Shown one piece after another: positions 2,610 through 61,319 of a stretch of DNA of 64,000 nucleotides. This stretch comes from Ypsolopha sequella (taxonomy: Eukaryota; Arthropoda; Insecta; Lepidoptera; Ypsolophidae): contig CAKOHE010000091.1 of NCBI GenBank assembly GCA_934047225.1, positions 372,001 to 436,000 of the forward strand. The letters are read 5' to 3'. The notes under the pieces were generated by a model. The model did no database searches and was not told the DNA's origin. It was given only the letters and a program-made list of their open reading frames with translations. A program made the position numbers and the translations under genes. Position 1 is the first letter of the stretch, and each line of letters opens with the position of its first letter.

Positions 2610-3877
2610 CTAAGACAATAACCTATTTTTATAATGTTTATGCTTATCATAATACATTTGAGCATATTTTTTCATTGGGTCATCATTTCCCTTGTAGGAT
2701 ATTTTTTCTGACAAAATACGGTTCATTGATCTGCACCAACTATATATTAATATGTTTATAGTTGAATCTACGAATATTTTTTTAAAATCATCATTGTGGC
2801 GATCGCAACAAGACGGAAATATCACAAAAGATTCTATGAACATTTTAATGTTTTGCTTGATAAGATTCTTTTTAAGATTGGTTTTCAGAAAAGTGGTTGT
2901 AATCTCTTGGACTTCATTAAAGCTATTGGCTAATTGATTAGAAGGGTAGCAAAGCCATTTTTTATTTTTATTGTATTCTTTGGCCCTTATGTACTCATTT
3001 CCTGCATCCATTTTCTGTGACAATATAGAGGTTCGACACGCTTGGCACGACTTTATTATTTTACTCAGGCATTTAGATAAAACCCAGCCACACACATACC
3101 TTCGCTGTTGATGATCAGATGGATCGGCAACTGTTACGTCATTGTAAAGAACGTCAATCATTTTTTCAAATATTTCAACGTTACCTTCGATTGCCTTTTT
3201 TTCGTAAGTTTCTTTTTCTTTGATAAAAAAATCTAACGTTTGGAGACAGTTATTAAAATCTTCTTCACAATTCGCATTAATAGCTTGTACTGAACTAAAA
3301 TTATTTAATAGAGATGTTTTAAATGCACCTTCGAAAGCACGACAGTTGGGTGAAACATTTGTTACACCCAAACTACGTATATTGCCAAAAAAATTTTCTA
3401 CCGAGTCCTGATTCAAGTTCCTTGTAAGAAGGCAATCAAACGACCACTTTTTATGCAAAATGTTCCATATTTCTTGCACTCCTTCTCTAGATTTAATACA
3501 TTTTTTTAGAGATGGGGCAGACGTTTCGACTATACGTAATTTATTGCCTTCTTTTTTTTACAATAAATTTTACATTTTTTAGAAATTGTATACTGTCCTG
3601 CCACAATTTGTGATGCGGAGTGTTTTTTTTTACACCACCTCTATATATTTTTCCATTAACTATATTGAAATTACCGGCGTTTAGACTATCAAACAGCTTA
3701 TCTAACAAAAGCACCACCGGAATGAGTTGACGGCATTCTTCTGGCAAATTTTTTCTAGCAGTTAGATGCTCAGTCGCAACGGCCACGCTATGGCTGAAAA
3801 CTTCGGATGCCATCTTTACCCGCATTTTCTTTATCTTCTCCGGGTTAACATGCTCTTCTGTCAGTTTATGAAGATAC
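2610..3877 (-). pseudogene. P-element-type (THAP9-like) transposase, 3' coding part, one frameshift
   Basis: This resembles the C-terminal half of P-element transposases (DNA cut-and-paste recombinases with a GTP-binding insertion domain). A splice acceptor (TCCTTTTCAG, ending at 3878) opens an exon reading YLHKLTEEHVNPEKI, then VFSHSVAVATEHL and LIPVVLLLDKLFDSLN. A run of eight A's (minus strand, about 3551-3558) carries a 1-nt shift. The other frame then continues without a break through LTRNLNQDSVENFFGNIRS, a hallmark of the P/THAP9 family, to the stop at 2610. The N-terminal THAP zinc finger and upstream exons are not seen in 3880-4600. Apart from the indel the frame is clean, so the copy is either recently dead or carries a sequencing error in the homopolymer. 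Confidence 0.82.
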
Positions 3878-3908
3878 CTGAAAAGGATAAATTAACTATT
3901 ACTGTTTG

Positions 3909-5019: not shown

Positions 5020-8000
5020 TTACAAATTGTCATCGATTGGAAGTACACAAATTTTTGTCACAGATCTTGTATGGACATGCCCGTTAGGTTTTTTTACTTC
5101 TACAGCCCTTACTTTATTATCGTGACCAGGGAACACGTTCGTGACTCTGGCCATTGGCCAACTCATAGGAGGCAAATTATCATCTTTCAGAATGACAAGA
5201 GTGCCTACTTTGATGTTACATGTTTCATTGTGCCATTTAGGTCTATTTTGAAGTACATTCAAATATTGCTTATGCCACATATTCCAAAACGACTGTTTCA
5301 ATTGCGTACATATTTGCCAATACTTTAACCTATTTTGAGGCATATTGGATACATCTTTTTCAGGGTACATAGTCAAAGCGCTACCTATTAAAAAGTGACC
5401 TGGCGTTAAATAGCTGTAATCATTTACATCGGATGATGACAGTGGGATTAAAGGTCTAGAATTCAATACAGATTCAATCTCAGCTAACACTGTAACAAGC
5501 TGTTCATATGTTAATACATTATTTTGCAATATTCTCTTTAAATGATGCTTCGTGCTTTTAACTGCAGCCTCGGCAAGTCCTTGGTAATTAGGCGAGTATG
5601 CGGGCGCGAAGCGAAATTCTATACCGTTTTCAGCCGCAAAACTATGAACTTTGGCCTGATGACCTTGTGAAGACTGCAGTTCATAAAGCTCAGCTAGGAG
5701 ATTCCTTGCACCCTTGAAAGTGCTAGCATTGTCAGAGATTATTTCGGTGGGTTTGCCTCTCCGAGAAATTAAACGTTTAAGGCACGCGAGAAAGGTTTCA
5801 GTGGTAAGGTCCGATGCTAACTCTAAATGTATAGCTTTAGTAGTAAAACAAATGAAAACGCAAATATATCCTTTACCAACAAGGGACCGTCTCACGCGCG
5901 AGTTTTTTACATTTACGGGCCCACAAAAATCAACACTAACTCTCTCAAAGGGACGTGCAGTTGCAGTCACTCTGCCCTGGGGCAAGGAACCCATCAGCTG
6001 CTGAGCAGTCTTGGCCTTATGCCTGAAACATGTAACACATTTACGTGTGATTTTTTTAATTTCTAACATACCGTTAACTATCCAAAATCTTTGGTTCAAA
6101 TTAGCTAGTAGGAGCCTAGGCCCAGCATGTAATAATTTCTCATGCTCACTCCTAATTATCAAGCTAGTAATTTGAGATCGCTTGGGCAAAATTACTGGAT
6201 GCTTCTGAGAATATTGGATGTTTGCATGATGCAGCCTACCACCTACACGTAAAAGCCCATGATTGTCAATAAAAGGATGCAAGTCTTTTAAAGAACCTTT
6301 GATTATATTTCCCTTTTCAAGCGAGTCTATCTCATCTTTGTAATGAATTTTTTGCTCATTACTTATTAAAAACATTAATGCGTTATTTAATTCAGAACTT
6401 GACAAATATTTATGTTCAATCTTTGCCTTCTTAATATTAACATTGTTACAAAAACGCAATATATATGCTAGTACTCTAACCATTTTGGGGATACTAGAAT
6501 GTCTGTGCAAGTATCCGATAACTTCATTACCTTGTGTATCTGATGACACCTGGTTGCTGGAGAACACCGAGCTTGACTGCTGCTGTATTTCAGGTAGGTC
6601 TGTTGGTATGTCTAGAGAGGGACAAAACACATACTCACTGTCATGCAAGAACTTTGGCCCATGCCACCACAACACACAGGCTTCGAGCTGACAAGGATCT
6701 ACTCCTCTGCTGATAAGATCAGCGGGGTTGTCATTGGTGTTAATGTACAGCCACTGACAATTCACTGTGTGCTGGCAAATGACTTTTACCCTATTTGCCA
6801 CATAAGCTTTGAGGTTAGTAAGCCCACTCTGTAACCAAGCAAGCACAATTTTCGAGTCCGAAAATAAGTAAACAGCTTGTATATTTATCTTCAGTTTAAG
6901 CGTGCTGTTCACTTTTGCAACCAGCATAGAAAGCAGCAGTGCTGCATTTAACTCAAGACGTGGTACGGTCATGTTCTTGTTTAGAAGCGGGTTTATCCTC
7001 GACTTCGAGCAAAGCAAGTGCAAGTTTGTGTTACCTTTGTTATCTCTGACGCGCAGGTATAAGCAGCAACCGTAGGCTGTAGTGCTAGATGCATCTGAGA
7101 AACCCAAGAGTTCAACGGTGTCTGTGTCAGATACATGAATATTTCTGTTTATTAAAATGGGTTTCATGGTTGCTAGACTGGATGAAAATTCTAACCATTC
7201 TGTCTTAATGTCATCTGGAATTTGTGCTTTCCAATCTAGTTTATTTGCCCATAGTTTTTGCATGATTGCCTTTGCTTTAACAATTATAGGGCTGGCAAAT
7301 CCCATAGGGTCAAAAAATTTGCCTATATAGCTGAGGACGTCTCTTTTTGTAACTTTATTGGTATCAAATGACGCAGGGCAATAAATTTTAAATTGATCGT
7401 CTTTCATTACTACATGAAGACCTAAAGTTTTCATACTACATTCATTTTCTTGCAGTTGGACATTATCAAAATGCTGTTCAGTTGAAGGAATGTCAGACAG
7501 AATTCTAAAGTCATTAGAAGACCACTTATGTGTCTGAAAACTACCTAGTTTCAACAAATCACGAAGTTGAGTCTTAGCTTCGAGAATCGTATTTAAATCG
7601 TTGTGAGCGTACAAAATATCATCAACATATGTGTTGTTTTTTAATATCCACGACGCTAATGGCATATCATGCGCATGCAGGTTTGCTAGCTCTTCAAGAC
7701 AGCGTGATGCTAAGTAACTAGAGCTTTTTAAGCCATACGTGACAGTGTCTAACCTGATGCACTTGATAGGCTCACTAGGGTCATCTCTCCACAGGATGTT
7801 CTGAAGAGAAGTATACTCTGGGCTCACACGTATGTTTCTGAACATGCGTCTGATGTCTGCTGTGAATGTAAAGTCACCAAATCTAAATAACAAGAGAATA
7901 TCAAAAAGATCTCTTTGGACGAGAGGTCCATTCAATAATAAATCATTTAAAGAAGTCTTTTTAGAAATAGTTTTTAACGAACCATCAAAAACTGAGCGTA

Positions 8001-8289
8001 ATTTTGTAGTTTTACTATCAGCTTTAATGACTGCATGATGAGGCATAAAATAGACTGCATCTTTGTTCATGTCATATAATTCAATATCTACATAATGACC
8101 ATGATTCAATGTTAGATACTCGTGTATAAACTTTTTGTATTCTGCGAGTAAATAAGGATCTGAATGCAATTTTTTTTCTAAATTGAGAAACCTTTTAAGG
8201 GTTAAATGGAAGGAATCACCTACGGTTTCGTTAACTTGGCTGAGAGGCAACTTTAATGGTAGTGCTACTTCGAACTGCTGATCCTTCAA
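5020..8289 (-). CDS. BEL/Pao pol: reverse transcriptase, RNase H, integrase
   Basis: A 1,089-codon open frame. Residues about 80-225 hold the Pao-type reverse transcriptase palm: HHAVIKADS, KLRSVFDGS, then TADIRRMFRNI (first catalytic Asp) and YVDD at 221-224. An RNase H-like part follows (LLGFSDAS, YLFSDSKIVLAWL). Next come the integrase zinc-binding segment (HAGPRLLLANL, CVTCFRHK) and catalytic core (VDFCGP, IISDNASTF). The C-terminal tail (LPPMSWPMARV...VRAVEVK) matches the DUF5641 domain typical of BEL/Pao. It reverse-transcribes and integrates the element. The first ATG lies inside the RT region because the true upstream part was cut off by the insertion at 8310-9348. The frame being open over 3.2 kb suggests modest age. 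Confidence 0.9.
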   Translation of the reverse strand: MKDQQFEVALPLKLPLSQVNETVGDSFHLTLKRFLNLEKKLHSDPYLLAEYKKFIHEYLTLNHGHYVDIELYDMNKDAVYFMPHHAVIKADSKTTKLRSVFDGSLKTISKKTSLNDLLLNGPLVQRDLFDILLLFRFGDFTFTADIRRMFRNIRVSPEYTSLQNILWRDDPSEPIKCIRLDTVTYGLKSSSYLASRCLEELANLHAHDMPLASWILKNNTYVDDILYAHNDLNTILEAKTQLRDLLKLGSFQTHKWSSNDFRILSDIPSTEQHFDNVQLQENECSMKTLGLHVVMKDDQFKIYCPASFDTNKVTKRDVLSYIGKFFDPMGFASPIIVKAKAIMQKLWANKLDWKAQIPDDIKTEWLEFSSSLATMKPILINRNIHVSDTDTVELLGFSDASSTTAYGCCLYLRVRDNKGNTNLHLLCSKSRINPLLNKNMTVPRLELNAALLLSMLVAKVNSTLKLKINIQAVYLFSDSKIVLAWLQSGLTNLKAYVANRVKVICQHTVNCQWLYINTNDNPADLISRGVDPCQLEACVLWWHGPKFLHDSEYVFCPSLDIPTDLPEIQQQSSSVFSSNQVSSDTQGNEVIGYLHRHSSIPKMVRVLAYILRFCNNVNIKKAKIEHKYLSSSELNNALMFLISNEQKIHYKDEIDSLEKGNIIKGSLKDLHPFIDNHGLLRVGGRLHHANIQYSQKHPVILPKRSQITSLIIRSEHEKLLHAGPRLLLANLNQRFWIVNGMLEIKKITRKCVTCFRHKAKTAQQLMGSLPQGRVTATARPFERVSVDFCGPVNVKNSRVRRSLVGKGYICVFICFTTKAIHLELASDLTTETFLACLKRLISRRGKPTEIISDNASTFKGARNLLAELYELQSSQGHQAKVHSFAAENGIEFRFAPAYSPNYQGLAEAAVKSTKHHLKRILQNNVLTYEQLVTVLAEIESVLNSRPLIPLSSSDVNDYSYLTPGHFLIGSALTMYPEKDVSNMPQNRLKYWQICTQLKQSFWNMWHKQYLNVLQNRPKWHNETCNIKVGTLVILKDDNLPPMSWPMARVTNVFPGHDNKVRAVEVKKPNGHVHTRSVTKICVLPIDDNL

Positions 8290-8309
8290 TTGAACAGATT
8301 GTTTGAATA

Positions 8310-9348
8310 TACAGGGTGGAAAAAATTTAAGGGCCCTGGAGGGGAACTACCTTAAATCCTTTAGTTAGCTCATTTTACTGAAAGGAAACATTCTTTTATT
8401 TTTTAAAAGAAACAAAACTGCATTCAAAGATATTCTGAAATTTGCTTGTCTCACCCGGGAATCGAACCAACTAAAAATAAAAAAAAAATCCTCGCTATTT
8501 TATCATACGAATCGGTAGGATTATTGTTCAGAATAAAATTTGTCTAATAAACATTTGGTCTTACACTCATCTGTTGTACGAGATACTCATGAAATTAAAT
8601 ATTTATTACAAGTTCTTAGTTAACAATACCTAGTACTGTTCACTTGTAACAAGTAAATGACACGTTATAATTTTCTTATCTCTCTTACATCCAAAGACAT
8701 CGTATGAAGTACAAGCTTGCTAATGTTATTTATCTTAAGTACCTTGTTGAATACTTCAATAAGAAAATCGTTAAATGGTAATAATAAATATATGCAGGGC
8801 ACAACTACTTCTTGCACTAGGCGTACTGACGAAAAGTTTAAAAAAGGAACGTATTTTTTTGCAACGCGGAGCAACAAATTTGAAGTTCGAACCATAACTT
8901 TCAACATTTTTAAAATCGATAAAAGTATTCGTTCGATATTCAAATTTTGTTTTGTTTTGCTTTCATTCCGTGCTGTCATTGTGTAATAATGGCGTATAAT
9001 TATTACTTTACAAGTGAACAGTACTAGGTTTTGTTAATAAAGAACTTGTAATAAATATTCAATTTCATGGGTATCTCGTACAACAGACGAGTGTAAGACT
9101 TTAGTTTAGTAGACAAATTTTATCCTGAACAATAATCCTACCGATTCGTATAATAAAATAGCGAGGGTTTATTTTTTTAATTTTTAGTTGGTTCAGTTCC
9201 CGGGTGAGACAAGCAAATTTTAGAAGATCTTTGAATGCAGTTTTGTTTCTTTTAAAAAATAAAGGAATGTTTCCTTTCAGTAAAATGAGCTAACTAAAGG
9301 ATTTAAGGTAGTTCCCCTCCAGGGCCCTTTCATTTTTTCCACCCTGTA
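8310..9348. mobile_element. Long terminal-inverted-repeat (foldback-like) DNA transposon
   Basis: Ends are TACAGGGTGGAAAAA and its complement, with inverted repeats of about 340 bp (8310-8649 and 9009-9348) that match with few differences, around a unique core of about 360 bp. The flanks are TA on both sides (TATA if the element is drawn from CAGGG). The core has an open frame on each strand (104 codons minus, 8979-8665; 89 codons plus, 8717-8986) with no recognised domain. It sits inside the BEL/Pao pol gene. A single right arm of the same element is at 53,717-54,013. Confidence 0.85.
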
Positions 9349-37821: not shown

Positions 37822-38481
37822 TATATGTTGTAGGTTTTCGTAGCGTTTTTGAATTAAATTTATGCTAAAAAACAATTATATGAATAGAAAATGTAAAATT
37901 CTTATAGCTTTTAATTGTTTGTAAGCAAAACAACAAGTTATTTTAAAAAAAAATGTTTGCATGGCCATAGACGAACAATACGAGAAGACTGACAACCCCA
38001 TACAAAAAAACGTACTCTGCTAGAAAGCCAAAATCCTGTATTATTCCTAGATGTCACTACTATCTCGCCCGCTAGCTGTACATACAATGGATGCTTGGTA
38101 CTAAGGCAGAAGGCGTAGTATAATTCATCGTAATATCCACGAGTAATCAGAGATGGCACTTTTACTATTTCATGTTGTTTACGAGCGAAACATCGCACAC
38201 ACATAAGTGTAGTAGACAATACAAATGCATGTGCACGTGAAGTGTTGCATCGCAGGTATAAATGCGCAAAGAGAATGGGATAAAGATAAGATAAAAGAAT
38301 AGCTTAGGTTACGTTCCAAAACTAGTTAATATAAATTTACCTCACAAGAGTCTGTCCCTTTCACACTTTATACATTTACCATACGCTATCTTGTTGTCAG
38401 GGTAAAAATTACTCTCCTGGATGTCTTTTGGAACGGCTTCCAAATTGAAAATTACAGTACTAGAACGAAGTGGGTTACTAA
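37822..38481. other. Gene-free stretch
   Basis: Contains the dispersed word CTATCTTGTTGTCAGGGT (38,385) shared with 26.1 kb. No supported gene. Confidence 0.4.
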
Positions 38482-38887
38482 GAGCGGTTTTGCAGCCGGA
38501 TTGTGAAAAACCCGCCCTTTTCTAATTAGTCGAAACAAAACACGTAAATTCAAAATTCACTCAATAGTTATTCAACAAAACTTTATTACCATGTATTGTG
38601 TATGTTGCCATCGCCATAGATAAAATAATTTATTTATCTATGCCATCGCAAAGTTTCCATTTGTAATCAGAATATTTGAAGTCATAAGTAAATAAGAATT
38701 TTAGAATTTCCAAAATTTCGAGGTTCCAATTTATAGAAACCAATGGAAACTTTGCGATGGCAACATACACAATACATACGTAATAAGGTTTTGTTGCATA
38801 ACTATTGAGTGAATTTTGAATTTAAGTGTTCTGTTTTGATTAATTAGAAAAGGGCGGGTTTTTCACAGTCTGGCTGCGAAACTGCTC
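38482..38887. mobile_element. Palindromic MITE, arms about 170 bp
   Basis: GTGAAAAACCCGCCCTTTTC near the left end is mirrored at 38,840-38,870. Arms continue through ACTCAATAGTTAT, ACAAAAC and TGTTGCCATCGC almost to the centre. The left arm alone carries the 35-bp footprint insertion (next entry), so the two arms allow a before/after comparison within one element. Confidence 0.82.
38608..38649. repeat. Transposon excision footprint: duplicated target around 28-bp palindrome
   Basis: CCATCGC (38,608-38,614) is repeated at 38,643-38,649 (8 bp, GCCATCGC, if one end base is counted differently). Between them is a palindrome starting CATAGATAAA and ending TTTATCTATG. These 14-bp halves equal the outermost bases of the terminal inverted repeats at 42,065-42,791. 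The opposite arm (38,750-38,765) has the uninterrupted sequence TTTGCGATGGCAACATAC, so the insertion is real. Confidence 0.85.
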
Positions 38888-39913
38888 ATAAAGAAGTTAT
38901 AATTTTTAACATTTATTTATTTGTACCATATTTACTCATACTAAGTAATATATTAGGACTTTGACAGAATCGCTAGCCTCTTTCTCGGGGTATCAAAATA
39001 TATTTTGTATTATATAGGTACCTATATATAGGTATTAAAATGCTTATTGTAAAAATATATAGTATGGCATTTTATTACACCTTTTCGAGAAATCCTTGAA
39101 AATATTATGTTCCCCTCCCCTTATCTCCAAAACTGGTGGACCGAAAATATGACAAAAGTCATGGTAATATGTGTTTACGTAAAGATTACAGGAAAATAAA
39201 ATGGTTGAGAAATTCACGAAAAAAAAATGACAAAATTCGTGAGTCTGACTTGCACTTGACCGGTTTTTTTAAACTGTGATCTCCACCCAGTTGAGGTACA
39301 TGGGATTACTTCGGGAATAAAGTAAACTACCAAATTGGTTGAGCCGCGTCGAACTTAGTACTACCAACATCTGTTTTTGAATTCTGACAAAAATCGGAAC
39401 ATCGATACTTCTCTGCGTGTTTTATTACTTTTACAGTAGGCGCACTTTGTGTAACTCATTTTACACGGTCGGAAATTAAGAGGATATGTTCCGCTTGCAT
39501 ACTACCCTGTTACTCCGTGCGGAAAGACCCGCAGTACGAGAGGGACGGATTCTGGAAAAAAGTCAAAATGACAACTTTTTTCACTAATTTTATTATTAAA
39601 AAAAAAAAAGAAAAGTTGCTATAAAATATCTGTCTCGTTAAGAGTTTAATAAAGTTTATACAGAATTTAATCCATAAATAATATGAACGGGTTTTTACTT
39701 TAATAAATTTAAACCTCGACATGAAAACTTTTTTTAGAGCCATCTTTGGCACTTTATTTCTCAATATTCAAATGACTTCTTAGGATTCTGTTTCGATATG
39801 AGTGTGTATTATATTCCCGAAAGAAATACATATGTTTTCTTTTTTATGTAGTATTGCTAGATGCTTCAAACCAGGAAGAATAAATTATGGTTTTGCAGAA
39901 ACTATCCTCTTAA
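38888..39913. other. Intergenic, with repeat fragments
   Basis: 39,230-39,265 is a fragment (reverse) of the repeat at 55,595. 39,490-39,570 is related to the 418-bp TTAA family end (GAGAGGGACGGATTCTGGAAAA). No gene. Confidence 0.5.
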
Positions 39914-40606
39914 GGGTCCGTTGCGCCAAACATGCTCTCGCATTTGGACAATTTAACATATTAAAACAAAATATTTTCAAGAAATAAAATTTATGTTAAT
40001 AGTTAAGAAGTTGAACTACATTATAATTTTTCAGATTTGACACAAGTATCAGAATCATCGAGAAAAAAAATCGGAAAAATCACTAAAATCACGAAAAACG
40101 TAATTTGGCGTTGCAAACAAAAAAAAAAACATTTTTTTTTTGTTGCAAATTGAAATATTCATTTTTTCGTAAAGAGATCAAAGCACCTTTTTTCTTTTCG
40201 TTATTTAAAAAGAAATACACAAATATTCAAATTCTTTTTGCGTAATTTTTCAGTACAGGAAAAATATAGAATGTTGGAGTATTTCTTTTAAAATAACAAA
40301 AGGAAATACAAAATAAAAAAATCTGTAAAGGCTACTTTTATTTCTTTACTCTATAAAAAAATATTTTATTTTGTAGTTAGAATAGTAGACTGATCATACT
40401 AGTTCCAAAGCCAAGTTACGTTTTCCGTGATTTTAGTGATCTTTCCGATTTTTTTTTTTAGATGATTGTGATACTTGTGTTAAATATGAAAAATTATAAT
40501 GTAGTTCAACTTCTTAACTACTTACACAAATTTTATTTGTTAAAAATATTTTGTTTTAATATGTTAAATTGTCCAAACGCGAGAGCATGTTTGGCGCAAC
40601 CAACCC
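39914..40606. mobile_element. TTAA-flanked MITE with about 190-bp inverted repeats
   Basis: GGGTCCGTTGCGCCAAACAT at the left is mirrored at the right (GTTTGGCGCAACCAACCC). TTAA on both sides (39,910-39,913; 40,607-40,610). Arms extend to CACGAAAAACGTAATTTGGC / ACGTTTTCCGTGATTTTAGTG. The short frames inside are not genes. Confidence 0.82.
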
Positions 40607-41986: not shown

Positions 41987-42064
41987 TTAGGAAAGAAAGT
42001 AATCTCCACTTGAGCCGTGAATCCGATTGAATTCGATTGTTTTGAACCAGTAGCTCTATCTAGC

Positions 42065-42791
42065 CATAGATAAATAAAGGAAGGAAAGATTGCTCACTCC
42101 ATACATTAGAACAAAGCCCGCGTAAAACTTATTATTTTCGCCGGTACCTAGTAATTCGACTTATTATTTGTGATGTCGCTACTATACTAGATAAATTGTG
42201 AATTACCTAGTGTCATCTACCGAACAGTTGATGAAACTAAATTCGATGTGTGTGTGTGTGTGTGTGTAGCAACTATACTGCACCCACAAAAACAAAAAAT
42301 TGCTAGAATACGACAATACGCGACACATGGCATACGATAAATCTGAGGATATCGCTCAACCGTGCATGACAATTGAGTCAAAGAGTAAAGTTATATACCG
42401 GTATGTATGAGTAGTGTGTGTTAGGTAAATAAAGCGTATTTTAATGCACATATTTTGTTTAATTGATCGTTGTGCGCCATCTACCGGAATCCAGAATAAC
42501 CATCTGCACGCTTAGTTAGATTGCCAGCTTACCACCGAAAGTTTAGTGAAAAAAATGTTAAAAACACCTGATTAAGAATTTACTATTTTCTGATGCGACG
42601 TTATGAAATTTTTGTGTTTTTATTCATAAAATAAATAAATATGATGAACCAGAACAGTAAAATGCTATATTTCGTCGATTTCAGACAAATTTTATTTCCA
42701 GCGAGACAAGTAACGCCATCTAGCAACGTTATTCTTAGTATTGCGAACAGTACAAGGAGATAGCAATCTATCCTTCATTTATTTATCTATG
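42065..42791. mobile_element. Non-autonomous element with CATAGATAAATAAA ends, 7-bp duplication
   Basis: Terminal inverted repeats of about 36 bp: CATAGATAAATAAAGGAAGG with subterminal AGATTGCT, mirrored at the right with a few changes. ATCTAGC (42,058-42,064 and 42,792-42,798) is an exact target duplication. The interior contains a (TG)n run at 42,246-42,268 and no transposase. The end sequence begins CAT and is A/T-rich, as P-element ends are; assignment to the P superfamily is inference. Confidence 0.82.
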
Positions 42792-42798
42792 ATCTAGC

Positions 42799-59445: not shown

Positions 59446-59483
59446 ATTTTCTTTTATTTATTATATATATTTAAAGTTATATA

Positions 59484-61213
59484 CAGTTGTGGTCATATAA
59501 TTAGGAACGACTAATACCAAAGTAACTTTCAGAAAAACAAGTTGCTGTAACTTTAGTTTATATTACTGTTACTACCTTCAAACGACATGATAATATAACT
59601 ATGTAAGCAGGCTTTTATACTACATATATAATATGTAAAATTGTTGAATTCAATTGATAATTTAATTAAAGTTCCATTTGAACTATTTATTTGAAACTTT
59701 CTAGCTATGGACAAATAATTAGAAACGGAAAAAATAAATTAATTTATTGAACTGTATCAGAAACCATTTTAATGAAATAAGCAATATTTATTACAAAACT
59801 TTTAACACAGCTTACAAAAAGCAGTATTAGTATTCTGTAGGGTGGCCCTTTCTTACAATAACTGCTCTGCAGCGACGGGCCATGGAATCTATTAAGTTTT
59901 TACAGGTTTCATCTGAAATAGTGTTCCACAATTCGACAAAGGCATCATATAGATCGTTCAAATTGCTCGTCTTTTTCGCAGCCACGCTTTTTTTTACTTC
60001 TCTCCAAAGATTTTTGATCGGATTAAGATCTGGACCATTTGCAGGCCAATCTAACACAGTAATTTTTTGATCACTAAGAAACCTTTTAACTGAATGAGCA
60101 GTGTGTTTGGGGTCATTATCTTGCTGAAATATCCAGACTACAGGCAACCTCTCCTCAGCATAAGGAAGCATAGTCTCCTCCAATATTTGCTTGTATTTAA
60201 ATTGGTCTAGCATACCTTCAATCTTTTTAACTGGCCCGACACCATGACCTGAGAAACATCCCCAAACTTTTATGTTTTCTCCCCCATGCTTTACCACTTT
60301 TTTCGTGAACTTACGATTCAAAGCTTGCTTAGGCGGTCTACGCACATACTGTTTACCATCAGACCCTAGTCTATTTATTTTCGTTTCATCAGAAAATAAC
60401 ACGTTTTTCCATTGACTTGCTGTCCAGTTGCCATATTTTTTCTCGAACTCTAACCTAGCTTTTCGGTGCACCTTCGTGAGAAGCGGTACACTCCGAGCGA
60501 TTCTTCCAAATAACTTTGCATCAGTTAAGCAACTTCGTACTGTACGTGTAGATACTCCTCCGTCGTCAAAAACTTCCCTCTTTATATTTTCTGAACTCTT
60601 GAAAGGATCAGCCTTTGCTGCACGAACAATCAAAGCATCTTCACGTGATGTTGTTTTTCTAGATTTAGGCTTTCGAGGTACATTATTCGTAGTATTAAAC
60701 TTTTTGACGTGATTTACAGCATTAAACAACTTGGTTTTAGAGCACTTCAAATGATCAGCAATCTTTTTATACGACCAATTACGTTCATATAGAGCCATAA
60801 TAATTTTTCGGGTCTATGGAACACAACTCTCCTTTTTGCCCATGATTTTGGAATAATTATGCACTTTCAACTTAGTCAATATAAAACGATGTAACCATAG
60901 AATACGCGGGAAACAAAAAAAATGCGATATTCGTTTTCAAAATTCAAAATTAAGAATGATTTTTTTCCGTTCCTAATTATTTGTCAAGCGGACAGTACAT
61001 TTAAAATACAATAGCAATTTGAAGATGATATGAACTTTTGATAGCAGTGCAATTGTTTTGCATATTGGGTATAAATTATTAAAGCCTACTAATATAACTG
61101 TTATTTTGTGTGGTTTAAATTTGTTATCAATAAGTTAATACAAAAGTAACAGCTACTTGTTTGTCAAAAATCGACTTTCTTACCAGTCGTTCCTAATTAT
61201 ATGACCACAACTG
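59484..61213 (-). mobile_element. Tc1-like transposon with intact ends
   Basis: CAGTTGTGGTCATATAATTA at the left and its exact mirror at the right, flanked by TA (59,482-59,483; 61,214-61,215). 1,730 bp. Inverted repeats run about 32 bp (to TAGGAACGACT). One transposase gene on the minus strand. Confidence 0.95.
59827..60798 (-). pseudogene. Tc1-like transposase, catalytic Glu replaced by Lys, N-terminal stop
   Basis: Tc1 transposase cuts and joins element ends through a DD34E metal-binding triad. Here a helix-turn-helix head (MALYERNWSYKKIADHL, TSREDALIVRAAKADPF, VSTRTVRSCL) leads to LFSDETKINRLGSDG (first Asp), FQQDNDPKHTAHSVKRFL (second Asp) and NGPDLNPIKNLW. There the expected Glu, 34 residues after the second Asp, is Lys (AAA, consistent with GAA to AAA). 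The frame is open for 323 codons from ATG at 60,798. However, the same frame extends upstream to an earlier ATG at 60,843 (MGKKESCVP) with a TAG at 60,814-60,816, so the usual N-terminus is also cut. Probably inactive, though its ends could be moved by a relative. Confidence 0.92.
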
Positions 61214-61319
61214 TATGTGGTACTTCTAAATAAAAAGCTAATAGAGGCATATTATATATTTAAAAAAGTTATTTGTACTATAACATAATGTGCCCGTTTG
61301 AGTTACACTTTTAAGATAC

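Follow-up and report, generated by a model that had tools for sequence, protein, structure and literature searches.

A 28-bp palindrome between target duplications as the probable excision scar of a P-type element family in Ypsolopha sequella

The window, that is, the whole 64,000-nucleotide stretch of DNA analysed here (C121:372001-436000 of an 866.8-Mb assembly in 151 contigs), carries several mobile elements. A broken P-transposase gene (2610-3557 and 3667-3879) and the long open frame of a Pao-type retrotransposon polyprotein (5020-8346) lie on the minus strand, and a Tc1-type element with a 328-aa open frame and exact 32-bp inverted repeats, at 59481 and 61216, spans 59481-61216. The P-transposase fragment has named relatives in Lepidoptera (Colias, Euphydryas, Brenthis, Spodoptera). 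The GTP-binding-domain piece of the window recurs on C121 at 162152, 242531, 312072 and 375667 and on several other contigs; therefore, the window seems to be part of a large repeated unit of roughly 65-80 kb.

The feature under study lies within an inverted-repeat element of the hairpin type (38479-38890; arms of about 150 nt), itself inside a larger dispersed repeat. Here, on the plus strand, a 28-bp insert, CATAGATAAAATAATTTATTTATCTATG (38615-38642), is bounded by two copies of the heptamer CCATCGC (38608-38614 and 38643-38649). The insert is a near-palindrome in which 12 of 14 pairs match. The mirror arm of the host element presents the same target once, without the insert, at 38754-38760 on the minus strand (GCGATGG on the plus strand), and the two arms align gap-free through the site once the insert and one duplication copy are taken out. 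L084 and L077 each contain another copy of the host element, and both of these are free of the 35 bp. Direct reading and the arm alignment thus confirmed the arrangement that the earlier note had described, including the empty mirror-arm site. A copy of this hairpin element at L084:4326-4661 lies inside a P transposon.

At 42065-42791 lies a 727-bp non-autonomous element, whose 36-bp terminal inverted repeats (42065-42100 and 42756-42791) are identical at 32 of 36 positions. Reading both copies of its target duplication (ATCTAGC, plus strand, 42058-42064 and 42792-42798) bore out the claim that it carries an exact 7-bp duplication of its own. We assign the 28-bp insert to the family of this element, hereafter the CATAGATAAATAAA family: the outer 10 nt of the family end stand on its left, 14 nt on its right and 4 nt in between. 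The earlier note had equated both 14-bp halves with the outermost bases of the element; this holds for the right side, which keeps 14 nt, but in the left half (CATAGATAAAATAA) only the first 10 bases are identical.

A palindrome arising by chance in AT-rich DNA has a negligible probability as an explanation. The core of the palindrome is indeed AT-rich, and the real window holds, besides the scar, one low-complexity match of the same geometry at 40111-40149. Nevertheless, this geometry (a 7-bp repeat, 8 perfect outer pairs and an insert of 16 to 80 bp) arose one time in 200 Markov-resampled windows, the site is empty in other copies of the host element, and the genome-wide search described below returned 164 sites against none for the reversed controls. 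The locus also has a twin: L107 (C16:6695342-6695389) has the same 48 bases as the window scar, both CCATCGC copies included, and the surrounding 912 bp, which belong to a many-copy repeat, are 95% identical to C16 over their full length. Since the same scar sits in a 95% identical paralogue, it is an old scar and one event rather than two, and it predates the duplication behind the C121 and C16 copies.

Matches to CATAGATAAATAAA number 830 and 826 on the two strands of the assembly, in comparison with 79 and 94 for the reversed pattern. Contig C1 has 71 such sites, among them 24 facing pairs; in 18 of these pairs the span is 682-739 bp, and the palindrome pattern with gaps of 0-30 bp finds 6 scars on this contig. 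Among 12 full elements that were read, chosen without regard to their flanks, the target duplication is an exact 7 bp in 8 and an exact 8 bp in one (L066), has one mismatch in two and is missing in one (L011). Two sequences, TTTATTTATCGTAG and CTACGATAAATAAA, noted at L082:4888-4923 and L083:106-119, resemble the family end with the outer part changed; in L082 they face away from each other.

Genome-wide, we counted 164 palindromes of 20-58 bp that keep at least 10 nt of the CATAGATAAATAAA end on each side, with gaps of 0-38 bp, and none with the reversed pattern. They divide by gap into 32 (0-3 bp), 36 (4-5 bp), 42 (6-7 bp) and 54 (8-38 bp), the control being 0 in each class; a search restricted to gaps of 0-30 bp gave 159, again with a control of 0. 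At gaps of 39-69 bp, there are only 6 palindromes (control 1), three of which share an end with a shorter palindrome; thus, the short class is discrete. A scan of viral_contigs for the scar pattern gave no match. One scar, at C17:14020643-14020669, lies about 1 kb from a P-transposase match with a 447-aa open frame (C17:14021674).

Flanks were read for 116 palindromes, namely 115 of the 160 listed (164 counted) and the window's own, comprising 32 of 32, 23 of 36, 24 of 42 and 36 of the 50 listed in the four gap classes in ascending order. In these counts, the window scar and L107 are one event entered as two rows, and more such repeat-borne pairs may exist. An exact duplication flanks 85 of the 116 (7 bp in 80, 8 bp in 4 and 6 bp in 1), a proportion that may slightly flatter the whole set, as the 14 palindromes omitted from the 8-38-bp class include about six that are long or of simple sequence and unlike scars. 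A 7-bp duplication with no more than one mismatch is present in 97 of 116. Shuffling of the partners gave an exact 7-bp duplication in a mean of 0.86 and a maximum of 5 cases over 2000 shuffles. Among the 31 palindromes without an exact duplication of 6-8 bp, 17 show a 7-bp repeat with one mismatch, and at least one palindrome of the sampled set, L047, looks unrelated. The earlier note had staked its reading on scars elsewhere being flanked by duplications as well, and in the sample they mostly are.

The 80 exact 7-bp duplications comprise 69 distinct sequences, and all 80 carry a pyrimidine (C or T) at position 2 and a purine (A or G) at position 6. This NYNNNRN rule was noticed on the same data that it describes; it also holds, by eye, in the 8 exact 7-bp duplications of the full elements. 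Position 1 is G in 46% and C in 31% of cases, both strands counted. Obeyed alike by full elements and scars, the rule ties both to one insertion machinery. Both the 7-8-bp length of the duplications and their palindromic target motif, which is of the Galileo type, agree with the P superfamily.

We consider it unlikely that another superfamily, hAT or an unknown type with a long stagger, moves the CATAGATAAATAAA family. A hAT element duplicates 8 bp of target, with a target rule of its own, and NYNNNRN loosely resembles that rule; furthermore, the part of the genome examined yielded no autonomous partner. On the other hand, the duplications are exactly 7 bp in 80 of the 116 scars and exactly 8 bp in 4, and to our knowledge neither hAT nor Tc1 footprints retain 10-18 nt of both ends. 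Membership of hAT was rejected on the length of the duplication, 7 bp prevailing over 8 bp by 80 to 4. Membership of Tc1/mariner, which calls for a TA duplication and a footprint of 2-3 nt, was rejected likewise, the duplications being 7 bp long and the Tc1-type control family free of scars. That family, represented in the window by the Tc1-type element at 59481-61216, has 84 and 74 end matches (158 in total, some of them in tandem on C17) and 0 palindromes; the ratio seen in the CATAGATAAATAAA family (164 per 1656 end matches) would predict about 16.

The lengths retained, scored against the family terminus CATAGATAAATAAAGGAAGG over the 232 ends of the 116 scars, point to a long internal cut as in the P superfamily. 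Ends with 10, 11, 12, 13, 14 and 15 nt number 16, 53, 27, 64, 40 and 12, respectively, making 212 of 232 within a search pattern that shut out retention below 10 nt. Beyond these, 16 nt are kept once, 17 nt twice, 18 nt 13 times, 19 nt once and 22-23 nt three times; thus, only 4 of 232 ends exceed 18 nt. Ends of 18 nt occur at 12 loci and in 7 types of junction, including six 18+13 joins and one 18+18 join. Since there is a spike at 18 nt and only 2 ends at 17 nt, the cut likely falls 18 nt inside the element end, where a lucky base match can lengthen apparent retention by a nucleotide. Most ends keep 11-14 nt, not 18, and the modal 13-14 nt would reflect trimming before ligation.

The joins themselves are diverse. 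The 20- and 22-base scar forms can be depicted as two identical tails paired through AT and TA, and filler stands at the junction of 30 of the 116 scars. An excess of microhomology over blunt joins was not supported, as overlaps of 1-2 nt occur in 44 of 116 scars in comparison with about 39 expected. Altogether, the 116 scars hold 49 different inserts, of which one 23-mer occurs 16 times and one 24-mer 15 times.

These lengths bear on the possibility that the palindromes are remnants of internal deletion, in which gap repair templated by a sister copy aborted and the element shrank to its extreme ends, with neither release nor end-joining. P-type excision often gives products of incomplete repair synthesis, according to the accessible parts of two reports (PMC2895639, PMC4168063), and the three ends with 22-23 nt and the occasional long filler could be read in the same way. 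Internal deletion should, however, leave a smooth tail of lengths, in contrast to the fall from 164 palindromes at gaps of 0-38 bp to 6 at 39-69 bp (control 1) and to the spike of retention at 18 nt with so few longer ends. We therefore hold this explanation to be quite improbable.

An all-against-all comparison of 56 scars with longer flanks and the 12 full elements found no full element at a scar site. The same comparison did find two scars, L015 and L018, at one position in two copies of one repeat (83% identity over 137 bp, both with the duplication GTATTAG), whose palindromes, of 26 bp and 24 bp, have different junctions. Different junctions are expected if one inserted repeat was copied and the element was then lost twice, and such a history is the simplest explanation of the pair; alternatively, one preferred site may have been hit by two separate insertions. 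The pair also bears on the notion that the 20-31-bp palindromes are micro-elements, mobile by themselves and inserting with 7-bp duplications. The recurrent 23-mer and 24-mer would suit such units, as would the many distinct sequences among the exact duplications. Nevertheless, the variety of the inserts and the differing junctions at the L015/L018 site speak against them, and the CTTAGAATAA ends described below show a like pattern. Furthermore, to judge from the available part of PMC7776569, a unit of this size would be too short for the inner transposase-binding sites of P ends, if these extend to the CATAGATAAATAAA family. Self-standing micro-elements are thus very improbable.

The P superfamily is well represented in this genome, with 150 scored matches to the GTP-binding domain of P transposase. 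RNase H, GTP-binding and HTH domains are present in all eight fetched open frames of 740-822 aa. Three of these loci (L083, L084 and L086) are P transposons 4.5-4.8 kb long, whose termini are CTCGGA or CTTAGAATAA and which have inverted repeats of their own, long open frames and exact 8-bp duplications; L086 encodes an intact 797-aa P transposase and has the ends CTTAGAATAATAACGCCTAGAA with an 8-bp duplication. In another P family, with frames of 824 aa, five copies score identically. L083, L084 and L086, with their intact P transposase domains, differ from the CATAGATAAATAAA family in their 8-bp duplications, length and termini, and yet the L086-type CTTAGAATAA ends behave like the CATAG family, in that a count of palindromes by pattern gives 149 similar ones with these ends (control 1). 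Some of these palindromes contain the L086 terminus in a 15+15 form; others have an inner GGAA and, from their sequence, may come from a subfamily related to L086.

The earlier note had proposed a search for an autonomous copy with a P-type transposase bearing the CATAGATAAATAAA ends. Five long CATAG pairs on C1 and C2 (3309, 2611, 1825, 1421 and 6829 bp) gave no tblastn match to 24 P-related proteins in a comparison run without a positive control. The eight fetched P-transposase loci showed no CATAGATAAATAAA ends within 5.3-5.4 kb, and five of them (L082, L085, L087, L088 and L089) no credible ends within 5.4 kb. Comparison by eye showed no exact 14-base CATAGATAAATAAA end near the P matches of C1 or near those in the first 23.28 Mb of C2. 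The check covered these five pairs, these eight loci, C1, and C2 to 23.28 Mb, a minority of the 150 P matches. Thus, the part examined held no such partner, and what the same genome does hold is a P-type element with CTTAGAATAA ends that gives like palindromes.

The closest known counterpart is the P element of Drosophila melanogaster, whose transposase places its second-strand cut 17 nt inward of the end and creates 17-nt 3′ tails (PMC7776569, in the accessible text). Many of its excision junctions keep the 8-bp target on both sides with up to 17 nt of each end and AT/TA overlaps or filler, whereas others have longer microhomology and lost ends, as far as the portions available describe them (PMC2895639); the latter class is invisible to our search pattern of at least 10 nt. 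The CATAGATAAATAAA scars resemble the P-element junctions in their two target copies, long end remnants and filler (PMC2895639, PMC7776569, both in part), and the ends start with CAT in both. The P element, in contrast, has 31-bp rather than 36-bp inverted repeats, an 8-bp rather than a 7-bp duplication and a 17-nt edge where the CATAGATAAATAAA family has an apparent 18-nt edge. Galileo, also of the P superfamily, makes 7-bp duplications with the consensus GTANTAC and a minority of 8 bp, according to the available parts of PMC4168063 and PMC2775673. The CATAGATAAATAAA family matches it in both lengths, and the palindromic GTANTAC is a subset of NYNNNRN. However, Galileo has long inverted repeats in place of 36-bp ones, and the CATAGATAAATAAA rule, unlike that of Galileo, tolerates either pyrimidine at position 2 and either purine at position 6.

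Taken together, we find it highly probable that a non-autonomous element of the CATAGATAAATAAA family, about 700-730 bp long and mobilized by a P-superfamily transposase, was once excised here, and that the 28-bp palindrome is its donor site after repair. Such a transposase would have put the element into CCATCGC, making the 7-bp duplication. At a later excision, one strand would be cut at the element boundary and the other about 18 nt inside each end, leaving two identical 3′ single-stranded tails. The host would trim these by a few nucleotides and join them, sometimes with filler, into a product in which the two copies of the target survive together with 10-18 nt from either end. The P-type interpretation of the earlier note is thus supported by the duplications, the Drosophila-like junctions, the CTTAGAATAA palindromes and the scar-free Tc1 control. 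What assigns a P-type mover to the family is the anatomy of the scars, the target rule and the controls rather than the enzyme; we infer which transposase acted, that the tails were 3′ ones and by what route they were repaired.

Among the papers listed in searches of the open-licence literature, mostly at the level of titles and abstracts, we found neither a genome-wide survey of P-type scars nor a paper with the full terminal 14-mer. On balance, we favour the broader view that a P lineage whose transposase staggers its donor cut by 18 nt and targets 7-bp NYNNNRN sites has left so many scars as to make one reference genome a natural, germline-scale assay of transposase cutting and of moth and butterfly repair, for several P families at once. 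If this is true, the cut position, target rule and end-joining of other P lineages would be readable from assemblies alone, with no need of an active transposase. Hundreds of natural scars would become usable, where the P-type excision junctions described so far, in the literature examined, are those of Drosophila. The same approach would offer a way of testing whether orphan MITE families belong to P-type transposases. Besides, the scars would reveal former insertions that probably escape ordinary repeat annotation.
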